Below, in pieces: positions 1,091 through 50,773 of a DNA stretch of 61,883 nt. Where the stretch lies: the IMG/VR virus record IMGVR_UViG_3300044726_000045, positions 1-61,883 of that record. One strand, 5' to 3'. Below the pieces are notes generated by a model. The model had not been told where the DNA came from. It saw nothing but the letters and a program-made list of their open reading frames with translations, and did not search any database. The stretch comes from a virus. The position numbers were made by a program, and so were the translations under genes. The stretch's first letter is position 1, and each line of letters opens with the position of its first letter.

Positions 1091-1234
1091 CTATTTTTGC
1101 AGCCCTAGTAACTGCTTGGCCCGGTCAGGATGCACACCCTGCCGGGTTACTAGCTGCTGATAGGCTTTCTCTTTCGGAGCCGTAGGTTTCGCCACCACGG
1201 GCTTCATACTCACCGAAATCGGTTTCAGTTTCAT
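1091..1234 (-). CDS. Small basic protein, 47 aa
   Basis: Found by reading the gap by eye. The ATG at 1232-1234 overlaps the TGA of the 2H/MuF gene as ATGA. The frame runs 47 codons to TAG at 1091-1093. The product starts MKLKPISVSMKPVV, is rich in Lys, Pro and Val, and ends HPDRAKQLLGLQK. An AAGG lies 10 bases upstream of the ATG. Tight coupling to the minor-head gene suggests a late accessory protein. No family is recognised. Confidence 0.6.
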   Translation of the reverse strand: MKLKPISVSMKPVVAKPTAPKEKAYQQLVTRQGVHPDRAKQLLGLQK

Positions 1235-3021
1235 GAGAGATACGCCTTGGCTTGCGCCATCATCGCCTCATCAGCGAGATCCAATGCCCATGTGCCCGAT
1301 GTTTCTCCCAAAATCCATTCTCCAATCGTCTTCCCCTCATAAACGAAGGGTAGCTCGACCAGTGCTGTCAACGCCGATGGTGACTTGTCCTGTAGTAACT
1401 GCCGAATCAGTAATTGGTCCGCAGGAGCCAGTGCCGCTACCGCCGCTTTCAACTCGCCTTCTTCAATCTCAGCCTGTGCGAACAGACGAATGGCATCCCA
1501 GTCAATTTCATCGGGTAGGAAACCTAGCTTAGCGAAGTAGGCCGCATTCCCTGCGACCCCTACGGCCAACTCGGTGGCTGACGACTTGACCCCGACGTTA
1601 ATCAGTTCCGTGAACAGATTCTTCAGGAACGCCAATTCCGCCTTGGGTGTCCCGGCTACTAACTCGGCTTGCGTTAGATAGAAGATACCCGTGAACGGAT
1701 CAAGGAGCGCACCCAGCTTGAACTCCACTCCTTTAGGATCTCCACCTCTCGCCTTCAGAGCAATGTTTCCATCCTCTTCAAACCGAATAGGATTCGCCCC
1801 GACACCCTGTCCCTTTGTCATCACCTCTTGCGGTGGCATACCTGTCAACTTCGCCAGCAACTCCGTGGGACTCATCCCGATGTGAGCATTCCACTGGGCC
1901 ACATTCTCTGGGGTGGCCTCGATACCCATCTCAGCCAAGTCAGCCGCTGTGACCGCTTGGAACACCTCAGCCTCGGCAGGCACGGTGGGTGTGACCTCGG
2001 TGGTCTTTCCCTTACTACTCTCGATAGATCGGCAGAGCGTGCGGCAGTGTGGATGGTACGGTGGGATGTGCAGCCCTCTGGCCACCAACTCCTCGTTACT
2101 CATCTCCATGAATCCCGCCATGGCTGCGTTCGTTTGCTTGGGCCACGGCTGCACCACACGAAGATCGTTCGGGTCTTGCACGTTCAGGGCTTCAATGACC
2201 TTCTCTCGTGCGTCAGTTACTTCGAACACCTTGCCACTGATGAAGCGGCAGAACCGGCTCGTGCGACCATCGAGCACCGCCGTCAAGCGATACCGGGCCA
2301 TGCCCACCACTTCGGCCTCTGCCGTGAATCCCCATGTCGCCAAGCGGCTGGAATTCAGGCTGGCAATCATCCGTAGCTGCTCATCCCCCTGCTTGTCGAA
2401 GGATACGAACGGTGTGACATACCGCCCCGACACAGGATCGGCTTTCCGCACTTGTTCGGTAGCGTCCCACTTGTTCGTTATACCGAATGGGATGGTTTCC
2501 TTCACGCCGGATGCGTGGCTGATCGTGATAGACGACACCGTAAAGATGCCACCCACGATCAGGTGGGCATACTTCTGTGCCGCCTCGGGTTTACAATACG
2601 CCAACGTACAGTGCGGCACGTAAACCGGGAAGTTCTTGTCCTTGAACGCCGCATAGTTCCCAATCTGCTGCTCGATGGTGTGGAAATGTGGACTGCCGAT
2701 ACGCGCCACCACCGGAACAGCACCACCGCTGTGCTCTGAGGCTGGAAACAACTGGACCTGTGTGACTTCGGCTTGGAAGGGGCGCTGAGACGCGATGAAC
2801 GCTCTCAGGCGGTCGTGCTCGTCATCCACCAGTCCATATCGCACCGTGACGTGGTTGGGGTCCACGTCCTTACCGGGGTCCATCAAGTCCTGCTCCTTGA
2901 TGGCGGCTCGGGCGATATTCAACTGGATCGACGCAGTACTGGTCGGATCAAGCTCGACCTGTGTACTGCCGTAGGAGTGTTCCTGCTTCTGAACCTCCTC
3001 TGCACTCAGTTGCACATGCAC
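1231..3021 (-). CDS. 2H phosphoesterase-MuF-GNAT minor head fusion
   Basis: Three modules are visible. Residues about 50-175 resemble 2H phosphoesterases (LigT/2'-5' RNA ligase-like), with paired H-x-T motifs at H57-V-T59 and H137-C-T139. Residues 245-331 carry the SPP1 gp7/Mu gpF minor-head signature DGRTSRFC...PPYHPHCRTLCR. The C terminus has a GNAT-like acetyltransferase pattern around 491-501 (GNAAYFAKLGF). MuF proteins are minor capsid proteins that often carry C-terminal toxins. Here an RNA-repair-like enzyme is fused in front and a putative acetyltransferase behind. The start is GTG at 3021 with AAGGAT upstream; a later ATG lacks a site. The catalytic activities are inferred from motifs. 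Confidence 0.75.
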   Translation of the reverse strand: MHVQLSAEEVQKQEHSYGSTQVELDPTSTASIQLNIARAAIKEQDLMDPGKDVDPNHVTVRYGLVDDEHDRLRAFIASQRPFQAEVTQVQLFPASEHSGGAVPVVARIGSPHFHTIEQQIGNYAAFKDKNFPVYVPHCTLAYCKPEAAQKYAHLIVGGIFTVSSITISHASGVKETIPFGITNKWDATEQVRKADPVSGRYVTPFVSFDKQGDEQLRMIASLNSSRLATWGFTAEAEVVGMARYRLTAVLDGRTSRFCRFISGKVFEVTDAREKVIEALNVQDPNDLRVVQPWPKQTNAAMAGFMEMSNEELVARGLHIPPYHPHCRTLCRSIESSKGKTTEVTPTVPAEAEVFQAVTAADLAEMGIEATPENVAQWNAHIGMSPTELLAKLTGMPPQEVMTKGQGVGANPIRFEEDGNIALKARGGDPKGVEFKLGALLDPFTGIFYLTQAELVAGTPKAELAFLKNLFTELINVGVKSSATELAVGVAGNAAYFAKLGFLPDEIDWDAIRLFAQAEIEEGELKAAVAALAPADQLLIRQLLQDKSPSALTALVELPFVYEGKTIGEWILGETSGTWALDLADEAMMAQAKAYLS

Positions 3022-26964: not shown

Positions 26965-28937
26965 TACTGCACCTCTCCGTTCCCGATTAGTTGCAGCGCC
27001 TGACTGACGCTGATGATCGACTTCGAACCCGCGAGATACTTACCGATGGACACCACCTTGATGGCACCCTCAGCCTGCTTCCACGCCAGCACCTTCTTGA
27101 TGGCCGGGTCGTTCACGTCAAGACCTTCCATCACAATCTCGTGGTCGCTCATGACGATGGACCGAAGGTCACTCCCCGCAGCCACCCGAGTAAACGATGA
27201 CGTGTGGTCGGCCTTGGCAATCAGCACCAGCCGCTTGGCAAGGTTCTCAGGAAGCGCAGAGGCCAGCCAATCCAACAACCTCTGTGCATGATTGTGCGCC
27301 GACAGGATGCTCAGATACCGTTCCTCTTCAGCAGACGGCACCAGATCCAGATAGAGCCGGTTCACGACCTTCAGCGTCTCCACAATCTTCACCGCTGACG
27401 CAGGCACGTTCAGCACCTGATCACCGAGATACAGCAGAGCTTCGTTCAGGGGCTTCTTCGGCGTATCGAAGATGACCGGGACGACGCCCAAGGTCTCATA
27501 GACCAGCGCGTTGAAATCCTGAACCAGTCCGTTAGCCGAGCCGCCGACAGTCGGTACCTTCTCGGTCCAGATCCGGCCCGTCGAACCGTCCATGCTCAGC
27601 ACTTCGATATCCTTGAACGACTCCACATCCTGTCCGACACCCACGATGCAGGCGCGGTCCATGCCACGCGCCACAACCGCCGCATGGCTCGTCAGACCAC
27701 CCACCATCGTGATGACTCCCCTCGCCGCATTCATGCCAGCGATATCATCGGGCTGCGTTTCCTTCGTCACAAGGATGCAAGGTTCCTTGCAACTGATTGC
27801 ATCCTGACGGGTGAACACCGGCTTGCCGCTCACGACACCCGAGCACGCCGGAATGCCTTGGAATGCCGCCTGCTTCGTCCACTTCGGGTCCAGCGTCACG
27901 GTCTGGGCCAAGTCAAACTGCTTGGCCGATACACGCTTCACCGCAACCTTCGGCTCAATCAGTCCCTGCTTGGCCATATCCACGGCAATCTTGATCGCTG
28001 CCATGGCTGACCGCTTGCCGGTCCTGACTTGCAGCAGGTACAGCTTGCCGTCCTGCACCGTGAATTCGATATCAAGCATCTCGCGCTTCAAGTTCTCCAG
28101 CTTGAGCACCTGACTCAGCAGTTCATCGTGAACCTGCGCGTTCCAGTCCTTCATCTGGTCCAGCGGCAGGGGCGTCCGGATGCCTGCCACGATATCTTCG
28201 CCTTGCGCGTTCGGCAGGAATTCGCCGGTCACTGCCATGCCGCCCGTGTCAGGGTTGCGCGTGAAGAGCACGCCCGTGCCAGACTGGTCATTCAGGTTCC
28301 CGAAGACCATGGCCTGCACCGTGACTGCCGTTCCCCACTCCCGGTCGTAGCCGTGCATCTTGCGGTATTCGTTCGCCCGATCATTATCCCACGACTTGAA
28401 GACCGCTTCGATGGACCCCAGTAGCTGCGCCTTCGCGTTCGGGAACTCTTCCCCGGCATGCGCCTGATAGCCGTCCAGCGCCAGTTTCAGGCCACCAGAC
28501 AACGACTCCTTGCGAATGCCCTTCACCACCGAGCCATACATCGACACCAGACGGTGGAACGAGTCTCCAAAGCACTTCGGCCCGAGACGTTCGATCCACT
28601 GCGGGATATTGCTGCTATCGAGACCGACGTTCAGGATCGTGTCCATCATGCCGGGGCACGAGACACGCGCACCAGAACGGACAGAGAGCAACGGCATGTA
28701 GCCGAAGTGCGCTTCCAGCTTCGCCAGATATTCCGGCAGAGCCTTGGCAATCTCCTTCATGGTGGTCTTGGGCTTCTTATCGTAATCCGCCCACACACTG
28801 GTCGGAATGACGAACCCCGGTGGCACCGGAACGCCCTCATTGGCCAACCATAGAAGTCCAACACCCTTGCCCCCGAGCAATTCGGTCGAACCCTTCGTCA
28901 GCGTGTCTTTGTCTAAGCCGAACGTGTAAAAGTCCAT
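26964..28937 (-). CDS. Pyruvate phosphate dikinase-like enzyme, truncated
   Basis: The start is M at 28937, with GGAGTGGTGG upstream; an ATG at 28973 would overlap the promoter -10 region. 657 residues. The ATP-grasp part has LLSVRSGARVSCPGMMDT (81-100) and TAVTVQAMVFGN, SGTGVLFTRNP and AQGEDIVAGIRTP (203-255), all PPDK signatures. The phosphohistidine domain has GGLTSH418AAVVARGM. PPDK (about 870 residues) ends in a PEP/pyruvate TIM barrel; here that part is replaced by about 215 unrelated residues. It can therefore probably form phosphohistidine from ATP but would pass the phosphate to an unknown acceptor, as rifampin phosphotransferase does. Confidence 0.8.
   Translation of the reverse strand: MDFYTFGLDKDTLTKGSTELLGGKGVGLLWLANEGVPVPPGFVIPTSVWADYDKKPKTTMKEIAKALPEYLAKLEAHFGYMPLLSVRSGARVSCPGMMDTILNVGLDSSNIPQWIERLGPKCFGDSFHRLVSMYGSVVKGIRKESLSGGLKLALDGYQAHAGEEFPNAKAQLLGSIEAVFKSWDNDRANEYRKMHGYDREWGTAVTVQAMVFGNLNDQSGTGVLFTRNPDTGGMAVTGEFLPNAQGEDIVAGIRTPLPLDQMKDWNAQVHDELLSQVLKLENLKREMLDIEFTVQDGKLYLLQVRTGKRSAMAAIKIAVDMAKQGLIEPKVAVKRVSAKQFDLAQTVTLDPKWTKQAAFQGIPACSGVVSGKPVFTRQDAISCKEPCILVTKETQPDDIAGMNAARGVITMVGGLTSHAAVVARGMDRACIVGVGQDVESFKDIEVLSMDGSTGRIWTEKVPTVGGSANGLVQDFNALVYETLGVVPVIFDTPKKPLNEALLYLGDQVLNVPASAVKIVETLKVVNRLYLDLVPSAEEERYLSILSAHNHAQRLLDWLASALPENLAKRLVLIAKADHTSSFTRVAAGSDLRSIVMSDHEIVMEGLDVNDPAIKKVLAWKQAEGAIKVVSIGKYLAGSKSIISVSQALQLIGNGEVQ
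27787..27802. repeat. GCAAYYRRTTGC palindrome, copy 6
   Basis: Core GCAACTGATTGC inside the PPDK-like gene, read there as A-I-S-C. Confidence 0.7.
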
Positions 28938-28975: not shown

Positions 28976-29004
28976 ATGGTAGCAATTGGCCCCATGTTTG
29001 TCAA
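28976..29004 (-). promoter_or_regulatory. Sigma-70 promoter of PPDK operon
   Basis: TTGACA (28999-29004), 17 bp, TACCAT (28976-28981). It begins exactly at the 3' end of the tRNA-like RNA. Confidence 0.8.
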
Positions 29005-29073
29005 GCGCCCACCGCTGGGGGTCGAACCCAGACTGTTCCGGGAAGGCTACAGTGCGCCGTCGTCGGTGAGCGC
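29005..29073 (-). ncRNA. tRNA-like small RNA lacking a D arm
   Basis: A 69-nt stretch with no reading frame, bounded by two promoters. On the minus strand its ends pair as a 10-bp stem (GCGCTCACCG with CGGTGGGCGC, one G-T pair). At 29015-29031 there is a perfect T-arm, CTGGG-TTCGACC-CCCAG. At 29032-29053 ACTGT and ACAGT form a 5-bp stem with a 12-nt loop. There is no D arm, no 7-nt anticodon loop and no encoded CCA. The upstream promoter would start transcription at about its first base. It could be a degenerate tRNA, a tRNA mimic or a processed leader. Confidence 0.6.
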
Positions 29074-29080
29074 AACAATC

Positions 29081-29339: not shown

Positions 29340-30451
29340 CGGTACTTCCCGTGCATGATATCAAAAATCAGGTTGAAATGTTCGGGTCGGTTTCTGGCAA
29401 AACTCACCGGGTCCATGATGTATGCCTCCACCCCGGTGGACACGATCTCCGTGGCAATGTCTTCCCTGTAAATCTTGCCCGTGTATGGATCGAGAAAATT
29501 CCCACGCACAGCAATCTCGTCATCCTCTAATCCCGGCTTGATGGTGTTCAGCTTGTATACCTCACGTGGGGTGTTCGCTTGGCGTTCTCTGAAATCAATT
29601 GCAGCTTTCAACACCTCTGACCGTCGCATCTCGATGTGGTGCGCCACCTCGTGGTAAACCTGCCGCTCCAACTCATTCCCACCCGCGATGTTGACCCCGG
29701 CGATGTCGGCATTGGCACGTCCAGACGTCGCCTTACTCAACTTCAACGACACCGGAATGGAATACGTGCCGTCTTCATTCTGCACAAAGGGATTCTCACC
29801 ACCAAAAATCTTGATGATTTCGTCCAACTTTTCAGCCGGGAACTTCACAGGCTCAAAGGCTCCTGACCCATCAAACGCCCGGAAGACTTGCAAAGCCATC
29901 TTCGTTCGTGCAGACACCCCCGGATGCAACGGATTCTGTGGATTGTCTGTGAACATCACCTTCGAACGCATCTCGGGCGGCACCTTCAGCATCTCATGAG
30001 CCTGCCCCAAAAATTTCCTTTGACGCTCCGAGACCTCATTGTATTTACGATGGAAATCGTCTTCCAGCGCCTTGGCTTCTTTGTAGGAGTCGAGCTTCTT
30101 CGCTGCCGCACCATCGGGCTTCAGCGGCTTCTTCCGGTTCTTGATCTCCTCCGACCACACGGTCCACTTCTTGAGCAAGTCCACGCGAAGATGGTTCAGG
30201 TGAACTTCTTCCCGCGCTTCACGCTTCAGCAACGCCTGAAAGTCTCGACGCTTCTGCTCCAACGGAGACCGCGAACCGCGTGCAAACTGTCCTCCAGTGG
30301 TGGTGCCTTTGGGATCGCGTGGCTGGCTGGGGTCAAACTTCAGGATACGGGCATACGGCTCAACCGGGACTCGGAACACCGGGAACTCATTCCACATGAA
30401 TCGGTCGGCCCCTTCCGGCAACCGCTTCATCTTGATCATTTTCAGGGCCAT
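29336..30451 (-). CDS. Tagged zinc metallopeptidase
   Basis: 371 residues. The tag lies at 37-58 (LKFDPSQPRDPKG then GGQFARG). A long charged helical region follows, then a compact domain with VYH267EVAH271HIE, a zincin H-E-x-x-H motif. A possible third ligand is E338 in the ATEIVSTGVEAY helix. The gene directly follows the HD/ART gene (TAATG overlap), far from the head operon, yet shares the same tag as proteins next to the portal. It is probably a virion-associated or injected protease; the target is unknown. Confidence 0.7.
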   Translation of the reverse strand: MALKMIKMKRLPEGADRFMWNEFPVFRVPVEPYARILKFDPSQPRDPKGTTTGGQFARGSRSPLEQKRRDFQALLKREAREEVHLNHLRVDLLKKWTVWSEEIKNRKKPLKPDGAAAKKLDSYKEAKALEDDFHRKYNEVSERQRKFLGQAHEMLKVPPEMRSKVMFTDNPQNPLHPGVSARTKMALQVFRAFDGSGAFEPVKFPAEKLDEIIKIFGGENPFVQNEDGTYSIPVSLKLSKATSGRANADIAGVNIAGGNELERQVYHEVAHHIEMRRSEVLKAAIDFRERQANTPREVYKLNTIKPGLEDDEIAVRGNFLDPYTGKIYREDIATEIVSTGVEAYIMDPVSFARNRPEHFNLIFDIMHGKYR

Positions 30452-32322
30452 TACCGTTTCCCCTCACTACTGCCGCCGCCGATGTATTCCAGATAAACCT
30501 GAGCCACTTGCACCGGCTTCAACGTGGGATCACCCGTCTGGTAGGTATACCCCGGATGCACCTTCGTCACACGAAATCGTGCGCCACTACCAAGGAGAAT
30601 TTCACTCTCAGTTCGCCTGTCCTTGTCATCCAGATCCTTGGCATTGATGGTCGGAGTCTGCGTATAATCTGGGATCGTAAAATCTTCAACCTTCAACTTT
30701 CCGTCTGCCGTCCACTCAGGATGTTCGAACACCGCAGGATCTTGAACACGAGGAAACTCATAGCGCATCCGTCGAGCCGCTTCCACCGCTGCCACCTTGG
30801 TTCCGGCAGGTAACGTGATGTGGAACTGCACTGCCGTGCCCACTTCATCTTGATGTTTCGCTATCATGCCGGGTTTACTGCCATAGCGTTGGTACAGACT
30901 CTCCCACTTACCCAGTGCCGGATAGCTCTTCGCTCGTCCCCCCGCTTCCCCCAGCATCGTGGACGTGAAACCTTTCTCTTCATACACGGATGGCGGTTCG
31001 CCGTTCGGTCCCTCGTACTGCATGGCCTGTAACGATTCAAACGTCACACCGGGCAGATAGGCTCCACGAATCACTTGCACCGGTTCGTCCAACACCAAAC
31101 CACGATTAGCAATCAGGTCATCGAGATGGTTGGCTTTGTCCGTAATTTCAGTGAGTCGTTCCTCATCGAGCACTGGACCCTTTACCGCCCAGTGTGCCGC
31201 CATGTATCCCGGTCCACCCGGCGTATCCTTCGGGATGTTGTCGTAGCTGTATGAATAACGGAACTCTGGACCTTCCGGTGGAATCATCCTCTGGACGGCT
31301 TCACCATCGTCAGCGTCCTTAATTCTCTGGTGCTCCTCTGGCGTCAACGCACGGATGCGTGCTTCCTTGGTAGGTGCTTTACCTCGACGTAGTTCGTTGA
31401 TCTGGCGATACGTGAATCCCGCATAGCTGTCCACCACGTCCGCGTCTTTGCTGGTCAGCTTGGTCTTCGCCCACTCGGCCCCCGGTCCCTTCTCGTGCCA
31501 CTGATAGCCCTCTTCACTGCTGAAGGAGCGTCCCGTGGTCTTCGTCCACTGGCCTTGGTCATCACGCGGCTGACTCGGGTCGAACTTCCGTGCCATCAAC
31601 TTCTCAATGGCGGTAATCTTTGGATTGCCCTTGAAGGTCCACTTGCCAGATGGCTCCTGCGTCATGAACGACGTGATGTAGGGATAGGCCGACGCATCGG
31701 CTTGATAGAACGCCATCTGCAACGTCGTAAAGTCAGCCACGTCCATACCGACTCGGGTGGCCTTCTCCTGTAACTTCTTAACCACGTCCGCTTCTAACGC
31801 ACTGAACCCTTCATACCCACGAAATAGCGGCCCAATCAGGTCATGGTTCAGTAGTTCCGTAGCCAACGTGATGTCCTTGTCACTGAAGCCTTCCTTCCGG
31901 AGCACGTCCTGCATGATGGGGACGGTGAACTGGTGTTGCGCTTCTTTTCCCGCTCCGGACTCGATAGCCTCGGCCTTCCCGATATCGTGCAACGGAATCG
32001 CCGTCTCCATCAGCTTTTCAACGTCACTCCCAAATCGTTCGGAGATACCTGCCATCTCCTCGTCGGTAAGTTGCTTTTCCCACTCGCGGCCCACGTCCTT
32101 AGTATGGGCCTCGATACTACCCATCTCGGTATGTGTACTGCGTGGATAGTTCTGGGCCACCGCTGGATACTTGATCTTGAGCGTGGCCATGCGGTGTTTG
32201 ATGTTGGTCCAGCGTCCCTTGTCATCGCGTGGCTGACTCGGATCGAATTTCAATGCGGAGACATAGTCCCGCTTCAGGACAAAGCGGTTCTCATATTCCG
32301 TTAGCAGTTGGTCCCGCAGCAC
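30451..32322 (-). CDS. Tagged HD-domain plus ADP-ribosyltransferase fusion
   Basis: The start is GTG at 32322 with GGAGAG 5 bases upstream; the longer frame overlaps a short gene. About 623 residues. Tag 1 is at 24-39 (FDPSQPRDDKGRWT), then an HD phosphohydrolase-like domain with IPLHDIGKA and NHDLIGPLF. Tag 2 is at 246-260, followed by an R-S-E class ADP-ribosyltransferase: R419 in VIRGAYLPG, GFTSTM at about 452-457, and E572-x-E574 in TESEILLGSGARFRV. These three motifs match exoenzyme-type mono-ADP-ribosyltransferases. Each tag stands at the N terminus of a module, as in the 1714-residue protein. Confidence 0.78.
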   Translation of the reverse strand: MLRDQLLTEYENRFVLKRDYVSALKFDPSQPRDDKGRWTNIKHRMATLKIKYPAVAQNYPRSTHTEMGSIEAHTKDVGREWEKQLTDEEMAGISERFGSDVEKLMETAIPLHDIGKAEAIESGAGKEAQHQFTVPIMQDVLRKEGFSDKDITLATELLNHDLIGPLFRGYEGFSALEADVVKKLQEKATRVGMDVADFTTLQMAFYQADASAYPYITSFMTQEPSGKWTFKGNPKITAIEKLMARKFDPSQPRDDQGQWTKTTGRSFSSEEGYQWHEKGPGAEWAKTKLTSKDADVVDSYAGFTYRQINELRRGKAPTKEARIRALTPEEHQRIKDADDGEAVQRMIPPEGPEFRYSYSYDNIPKDTPGGPGYMAAHWAVKGPVLDEERLTEITDKANHLDDLIANRGLVLDEPVQVIRGAYLPGVTFESLQAMQYEGPNGEPPSVYEEKGFTSTMLGEAGGRAKSYPALGKWESLYQRYGSKPGMIAKHQDEVGTAVQFHITLPAGTKVAAVEAARRMRYEFPRVQDPAVFEHPEWTADGKLKVEDFTIPDYTQTPTINAKDLDDKDRRTESEILLGSGARFRVTKVHPGYTYQTGDPTLKPVQVAQVYLEYIGGGSSEGKR

Positions 32323-32324
32323 AA

Positions 32325-32495
32325 CTACTCTCCGGTGATACGTGTTCGTGCCGCTTCCAACGCCGACGTAATCTTGTCCATGTCCATGACAACTTCCTGC
32401 CACCCGGTCTGTTTCTCGGCAGGAAACTTGAGGACGTACTTATAGCTGGGCTTCTTCTTTTTCTTCGGGGGTTCCGTCTTCCATGTCAGCGGCAT
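32325..32495 (-). CDS. Short Lys-rich protein, 56 aa
   Basis: Found by eye. ATG at 32493-32495 with GGGAGG 8 bases upstream; stop TAG at 32325-32327. The product starts MPLTWKTEPPKKKKKPSYKY and continues VLKFPAEKQTGW, which resembles the lead-in to the repeated tag but lacks its P-R-x-x-x-G part. It lies directly between the appendage gene and the HD/ART gene. The function is unknown. Confidence 0.6.
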   Translation of the reverse strand: MPLTWKTEPPKKKKKPSYKYVLKFPAEKQTGWQEVVMDMDKITSALEAARTRITGE

Positions 32496-48230: not shown

Positions 48231-48254
48231 ATCACAATTTTCAAGATTTGTCAA
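48226..48254 (-). promoter_or_regulatory. Sigma-70 promoter, upstream of a tandem pair
   Basis: TTGACA (48249-48254), 17 bp, TAAACT (48226-48231), with -10 under the inverted repeat. The -35 lies in the L-D-K-S end of the 75-residue gene. Confidence 0.75.
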
Positions 48255-50717: not shown

Positions 50718-50753
50718 GGGGACTATTTGGTACCTCTCTACCGAATAGTCCCC
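50718..50753 (+). terminator. Hairpin terminator after the plus-strand gene
   Basis: A 15-bp stem (including one G-T pair) with a 6-base loop, GGGGACTATT pairing with AATAGTCCCC. Then TATTACTGGTTATTT, moderately T-rich. It overlaps the -10 region of the opposite promoter. Confidence 0.65.
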
Positions 50754-50773
50754 TATTACTGGTTATTTGTCAA
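50745..50773 (-). promoter_or_regulatory. Sigma-70 promoter antisense to plus-strand gene
   Basis: TTGACA (50768-50773), 17 bp, GACTAT (50745-50750). The -35 contains the TGA stop of the 98-residue gene. Transcription runs through the plus gene in antisense into the 50348 gene. Confidence 0.6.

Follow-up and report, generated by a model that had tools for sequence, protein, structure and literature searches.

A 69-nt tRNA-like segment on the minus strand of a virus sequence (29073-29005) is read here, at a probability of about 0.5, as the 5'-terminal leader hairpin of the transcript from an upstream promoter (P1), probably built on the remnant of a tRNA 3' half. The element lies outside both the tRNA and the mascRNA families, and is probably a lineage-specific structured leader, half of it derived from a tRNA. 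Such a leader is more likely than a working tRNA mimic, because relatives do not keep the tRNA-like shape.

The whole 61,883-base virus record, probably a fragment, is here called the window. Nearly all of its genes are on the minus strand, including those for portal, DNA polymerase, thymidylate synthase, DNA ligase and tail-fibre proteins. An earlier sequence-only reading had reported the element with no strand; the sequence places it on the minus strand, between a 77-aa ORF (29339-29106) and a gene resembling pyruvate-phosphate-dikinase (PPDK). The start of the PPDK-like gene, given as 28973 in a program-made ORF list, is probably the ATG at 28937, because of a conserved ribosome site (AATGGAGTG) and the starts of the related proteins (M-x-F-...-F-G). 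The gene has ATP-binding and mobile phosphohistidine domains, with no PEP/pyruvate-binding C-terminal domain in Pfam, and its C-terminal third is fast-evolving, with ~50% nucleotide identity to a related locus (L044) at each codon position. Elsewhere in the window, the C-terminal part of a 650-aa protein (30451-32403, minus) weakly matches an ADP-ribosyltransferase exoenzyme, and residues 52-149 of a minor head-like protein (1231-3021, minus) also match a PHROG named RNA ligase (E 3e-7). The features around the element are, in the direction of transcription:

29109-29081, minus: upstream promoter P1, TTGACAAAC (TTGACA), 17-nt spacer, TGT-TACCTT; from the sequence and a shared pattern
29073-29005, minus: tRNA-like segment, 69 nt, with a 10-bp terminal stem, an optional middle stem-loop and a T arm
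29073-29064, minus: 5' strand of the terminal stem, GCGCTCACCG; pairing probability at least 0.95 at every pair
29053-29032, minus: possible middle stem-loop, ACTGT-AGCCTTCCCGGA-ACAGT; predicted at most ~10% formed, missing in L044 and L036
29031-29015, minus: T arm, CTGGG-TTCGACC-CCCAG; from the sequence, with a motif-scan match at 29031
29014-29005, minus: 3' strand of the terminal stem, CGGTGGGCGC; from the sequence and pairing probabilities
29004-28976, minus: downstream promoter P2, TTGACAAAC (TTGACA), 17-nt spacer, TGC-TACCAT; from a promoter scan
28937-26964, minus: PPDK-like gene, with Pfam PPDK_N and PEP-utilizers mobile domains

Written 5'-3' from 29073 to 29005, the element is GCGCTCACCG ACGACGGCGC ACTGT AGCCTTCCCGGA ACAGT CTGGG TTCGACC CCCAG CGGTGGGCGC. 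The terminal stem comprises 10 bp, including one U-G pair, and the T arm is stacked directly upon it. The T arm follows the consensus (G53-C61, loop TTCRANY), so that the tRNA arrangement of a TTCRANY-looped arm on a 7-bp acceptor stem is present, with three pairs beyond the canonical length. Everything that the sequence-only reading had drawn is found in the element, namely the terminal stem, the T arm and a 5-bp stem with a 12-nt loop, the last only as a possible structure since it is predicted to be at most ~10% formed in both the window and a near-identical copy (L035). The reported absence of a D arm and a normal anticodon loop is also borne out: neither a D arm nor a 7-nt anticodon loop with U33 was found in the element, and only a forced ARAGORN run (-ps60) draws a broken form. 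Predicted formation of the T arm is 16% in the window sequence, as against 88% in L035, whose element differs by a single base in the 12-nt loop. The overall stability of the fold is ordinary (z = -1.44), which weighs against a structured leader and favours coincidence.

The element fills the gap between two promoter-like sequences, its terminal stem spanning the interval from the predicted P1 start to the P2 -35 box. P2 is a good extended -10 promoter (TGn) and begins at 29004, confirming the earlier observation that a promoter adjoins the last base of the element. P1, predicted from sequence alone, has a perfect -35 box and a weak -10 box helped by a TGn; the latter matches at only 3/6 positions, hence its absence from the strict promoter scan. 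P1 nevertheless shares the TTGACAAAC-N-TGN-TA pattern of this phage, and it fits the TTGACAAA(C/T) pattern, which occurs at 18 sites in the window, all on the minus strand. The predicted P1 start, about 29073-29076, coincides with the first base of the stem or lies only a few bases away. The claim that a sigma-70 promoter points to that first base is thus upheld as to position (about 29073), and is tempered by the weak -10 box.

A terminator scan found no terminator-like site after the element. The sequence therefore offers no free 70-nt RNA, and P1 transcripts, which would open with the hairpin, should run on into the PPDK-like gene. With P1 starting where the stem begins, or close by, the transcript would have its 5' end locked in a strong hairpin, and P2 would supply a second PPDK transcript lacking it. 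The hairpin would most likely serve to shield the long P1 transcript at its 5' end, thereby setting how stable that transcript is. Hairpins at the 5' terminus protect bacterial mRNA from 5'-end-dependent decay, as in ompA-type leaders. The element resembles ompA-type stem-loops in having a strong hairpin predicted at the first bases of the transcript, but it carries a T-arm motif, its start is a predicted one, and the hairpin is not kept in all relatives. The resemblance to tRNA would come from the T arm plus acceptor 3' strand of its 3' half, probably a remnant put into a fast-evolving spacer.

A PPDK alignment supplied 80 related loci for comparison. The near-identical contig (L035/L003) carries the same element, and the sole diverged homologue is that of L044 and L036 (73-74% PPDK identity), whose leader (GCGTTCAC-GGTCTGGGTTCAACTTCCAACGATGGGCGC) is 31 nt shorter. 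As the length difference between window and L044 is not divisible by three, coding sequence was rejected as an explanation of the element. In the L044/L036 leader the outer 7 bp are held at the same place, with one C-G changed to U-G. Aligned by hand, the leader has C-A, G-G and G-C at the inner stem pairs, and the T stem acquires a C-A mismatch at its outermost pair and one G-U; the middle arm is missing. No compensatory stem changes were seen in this one diverged homologue, an outcome that the sequence-only reading had named as counting against its tRNA mimic, and on this homologue the mimic fails. The segment from T arm to stem is identical between window and L044 at 23 of 28 positions (counted on the alignment), compared with 62-66% at third positions of the first 150 PPDK codons. 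This makes some constraint on the T-arm/3'-stem segment possible, yet P2, immediately adjoining, shows still greater similarity and may account for the identity.

Twin TTGACAAA promoters precede the PPDK-like genes of L036/L044, L037/L038, L039, L040, L041, L043, L053 and L060, and since the pair recurs in these diverged relatives it is a conserved unit. The spacing is 65-77 bp in these loci versus 105 in the window, and the spacers of L053, L037/L038, L060, L039, L040, L041 and L043 are unrelated to that of the window. A covariance model of the element found nothing further in relatives beyond the L044 clade, nor elsewhere in the window (one match in L006, at 23.6 bits, falls in a ParB-like gene), and no match to the element was found in annotated phages. 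The outgroup spacing of 73-77 bp suggests that an insertion of ~31 nt in the lineage of the window is a simpler history than a deletion in L044. Such a gain, in place of decay from a full tRNA, counts against the favoured reading.

Structure in the other leaders is uneven. L040 has a strong hairpin filling the promoter interval (z = -4.0), and the spacer z-scores of the relatives lean negative overall, with most spacers not unusually structured. Pairing of the first 6 nt is clearly above the shuffle mean in 6/9 leaders, each individually weak. The evidence for a hairpin role at the 5' end in general is weak, and most of it comes from one relative. The leader role is inferred: the strong L040 hairpin and the similar leaning of others support it, but the hairpin-less leaders of L037, L041 and L043 tell against it.

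The best surviving alternative, possible but doubtful, is coincidence: a GC-rich inter-promoter spacer that happens to form a T-arm-like hairpin, with no tRNA ancestry and no function beyond promoter spacing. The unrelated and mostly unremarkable spacers of most relatives fit this account, as does the reading of the extra ~31 nt as a lineage-specific insertion, and rare coincidences are bound to turn up when very many windows are scanned. Against it stands the rarity of the motif. A scan for a five-pair T stem with consensus loop on at least 7 further pairs, their 5' strand a few tens of bases upstream, found one site in the window, where 0.02 or 0.007 would be expected per window; these expectations are for random sequence of equal composition, and the motif had been picked after viewing the sequence. 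Cases with 9-10 bp were absent from 600 random windows, and in the 1.34 Mb around the PPDK genes of the 80 related loci the T-arm scan returned only recognisable tRNAs and the near-identical copy. The top half of the element is therefore not a trivial match, and the 23/28 identity with L044 also speaks against coincidence.

Comparison with tRNAs separates the two halves of the element. With 667 tRNAs from the loci compared here as the comparison set and shuffles as control, the tRNA similarity of the 5' 42 nt is at shuffle level, which weighs against a tRNA-derived leader. The whole element matches a phage tRNA-Gln at 25/30 bases, all within the 3' half, and when the T arm is fixed and the flanks are shuffled, 3/200 sequences equal this match. 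The corresponding L044 segment shares 17/18 bases with the 3' part of a tRNA-Ile. Phages often put tRNA genes directly before TTGACAAAC promoters, including a member of the PPDK group (L171, on the same contig as L062), and the related PPDK phages DLP3 and DLP5 have five tRNAs (PMC7326821). Given the tRNA-Gln match, the tRNA-before-promoter cases and the DLP3 and DLP5 tRNAs, it is plausible that the 3' half is the remnant of a tRNA 3' half. The idea of a degenerate tRNA thus survives in part: the T arm and acceptor-like stem are above chance and the 3' half matches, but the 5' half does not.

A pure tRNA pseudogene lying between the promoters, more decayed in L044/L036 than in the window and with no present role, is unlikely. 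The consensus top half, the tRNA-Ile match, the intact tRNA of L171 and the tRNAs of DLP3 and DLP5 favour such a relic. However, there is no trace of a D arm or anticodon arm, decay would not produce a terminal stem complete over 10 bp, three past the acceptor stem, and the outgroup spacing leaves no room for an ancestral tRNA; a tRNA gene ending in CCCNNCGGTGGGC was not found in ~85,000 genomes. Like the tRNA fragments and pseudogenes of prokaryotes and phages (PMC9897764), the element has a recognisable T arm and acceptor 3' strand with the other arms missing; it differs from them in its tRNA-unrelated 5' half and its complete, extended stem, and no host tRNA counterpart was found.

An attP carrying a host tRNA 3' end was considered and rejected: GGGTTCGANYCCCNNCGGTGGGC has 3 matches in ~85,000 genomes, none with an ARAGORN tRNA. 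DLP3 and DLP5 appear to lysogenise as phagemids (PMC7326821). Separately, in many unrelated viral contigs (L116-L215), tRNA genes end directly at a GCTTGACAAAC promoter, followed by a AGTTTGTTACTATATA-type stretch, and this tRNA-promoter junction recurs across them.

A functional D-armless tRNA mimic, processed as a decoy for RNase P, CCA-adding enzyme, EF-Tu or a host defence nuclease, is very unlikely. In its favour are a T loop that fits the consensus in full, also in L044 (TTCAACT), with its arm stacked on a long acceptor-like helix, and the sole match in Rfam (E up to 10, 301 nt searched), to mascRNA-menRNA (RF01684; 25.7 bits, E 0.003), which falls below the family gathering score of 42.5. 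The tRNA-gene and covariance checks proposed in the sequence-only reading return no call: ARAGORN reports no tRNA in default or mitochondrial mode, and the Rfam tRNA model (RF00005) matches nowhere in the 301 nt searched, even at E up to 10. A D-armless tRNA of the mitochondrial type is rejected on the same -mt result. Beyond its shape nothing positive points to engagement of EF-Tu, RNase P or a modifying enzyme, as had been envisaged: there is no terminator and no encoded CCA, the T arm is predicted mostly unformed in the window sequence, L044 lacks the middle arm and has broken inner pairs and a mismatched T stem, and relatives outside the L044 clade share the promoter pair without such an RNA. 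The more elaborate proposal of a phage RNA consisting of a D-armless tRNA top half, cut by RNase P from the P1 transcript to decoy tRNA-binding enzymes or tRNA-directed host defence, is highly improbable.

Among known RNAs, mascRNA and menRNA are tRNA-like RNAs cut by RNase P. The element is similarly small, with an acceptor and T arm and reduced D and anticodon arms, but these are animal nuclear RNAs, whereas the element is from a phage, known from its sequence and below the family threshold, and its 12-nt loop and 10-bp end stem differ from theirs. If the element were a functional mimic, it would represent a minimal tRNA decoy of phage origin and allow the requirements of tRNA-binding enzymes to be tested directly. 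On the favoured reading of a structured leader, the element would be a small example of a tRNA-like half arising in, or built into, a fast-changing spacer between twin phage promoters, and it cautions that a perfect T arm is not sufficient for a tRNA-like RNA gene.

Scans for the tandem-promoter pattern gave no further tRNA-like spacer. A second tandem TTGACAAA pair lies at 48254 and 48191 (minus), 63 bp apart. Helical phasing of the twin promoters was considered, the PPDK relatives clustering around 7 turns as against 10 in the window, and is not claimed because unrelated phage promoter pairs have all spacings. At 50718-50753 (minus), an inverted repeat whose 15 bp are almost perfectly matched around a 6-nt loop (GGGGACTATTCGGTA/TACCAAATAGTCCCC) overlaps the -10 region of the TTGACAAAT promoter lying at 50773; the hairpin of this repeat (fold z = -3.7) is more striking than the tRNA-like element, and could be an operator or a leader.
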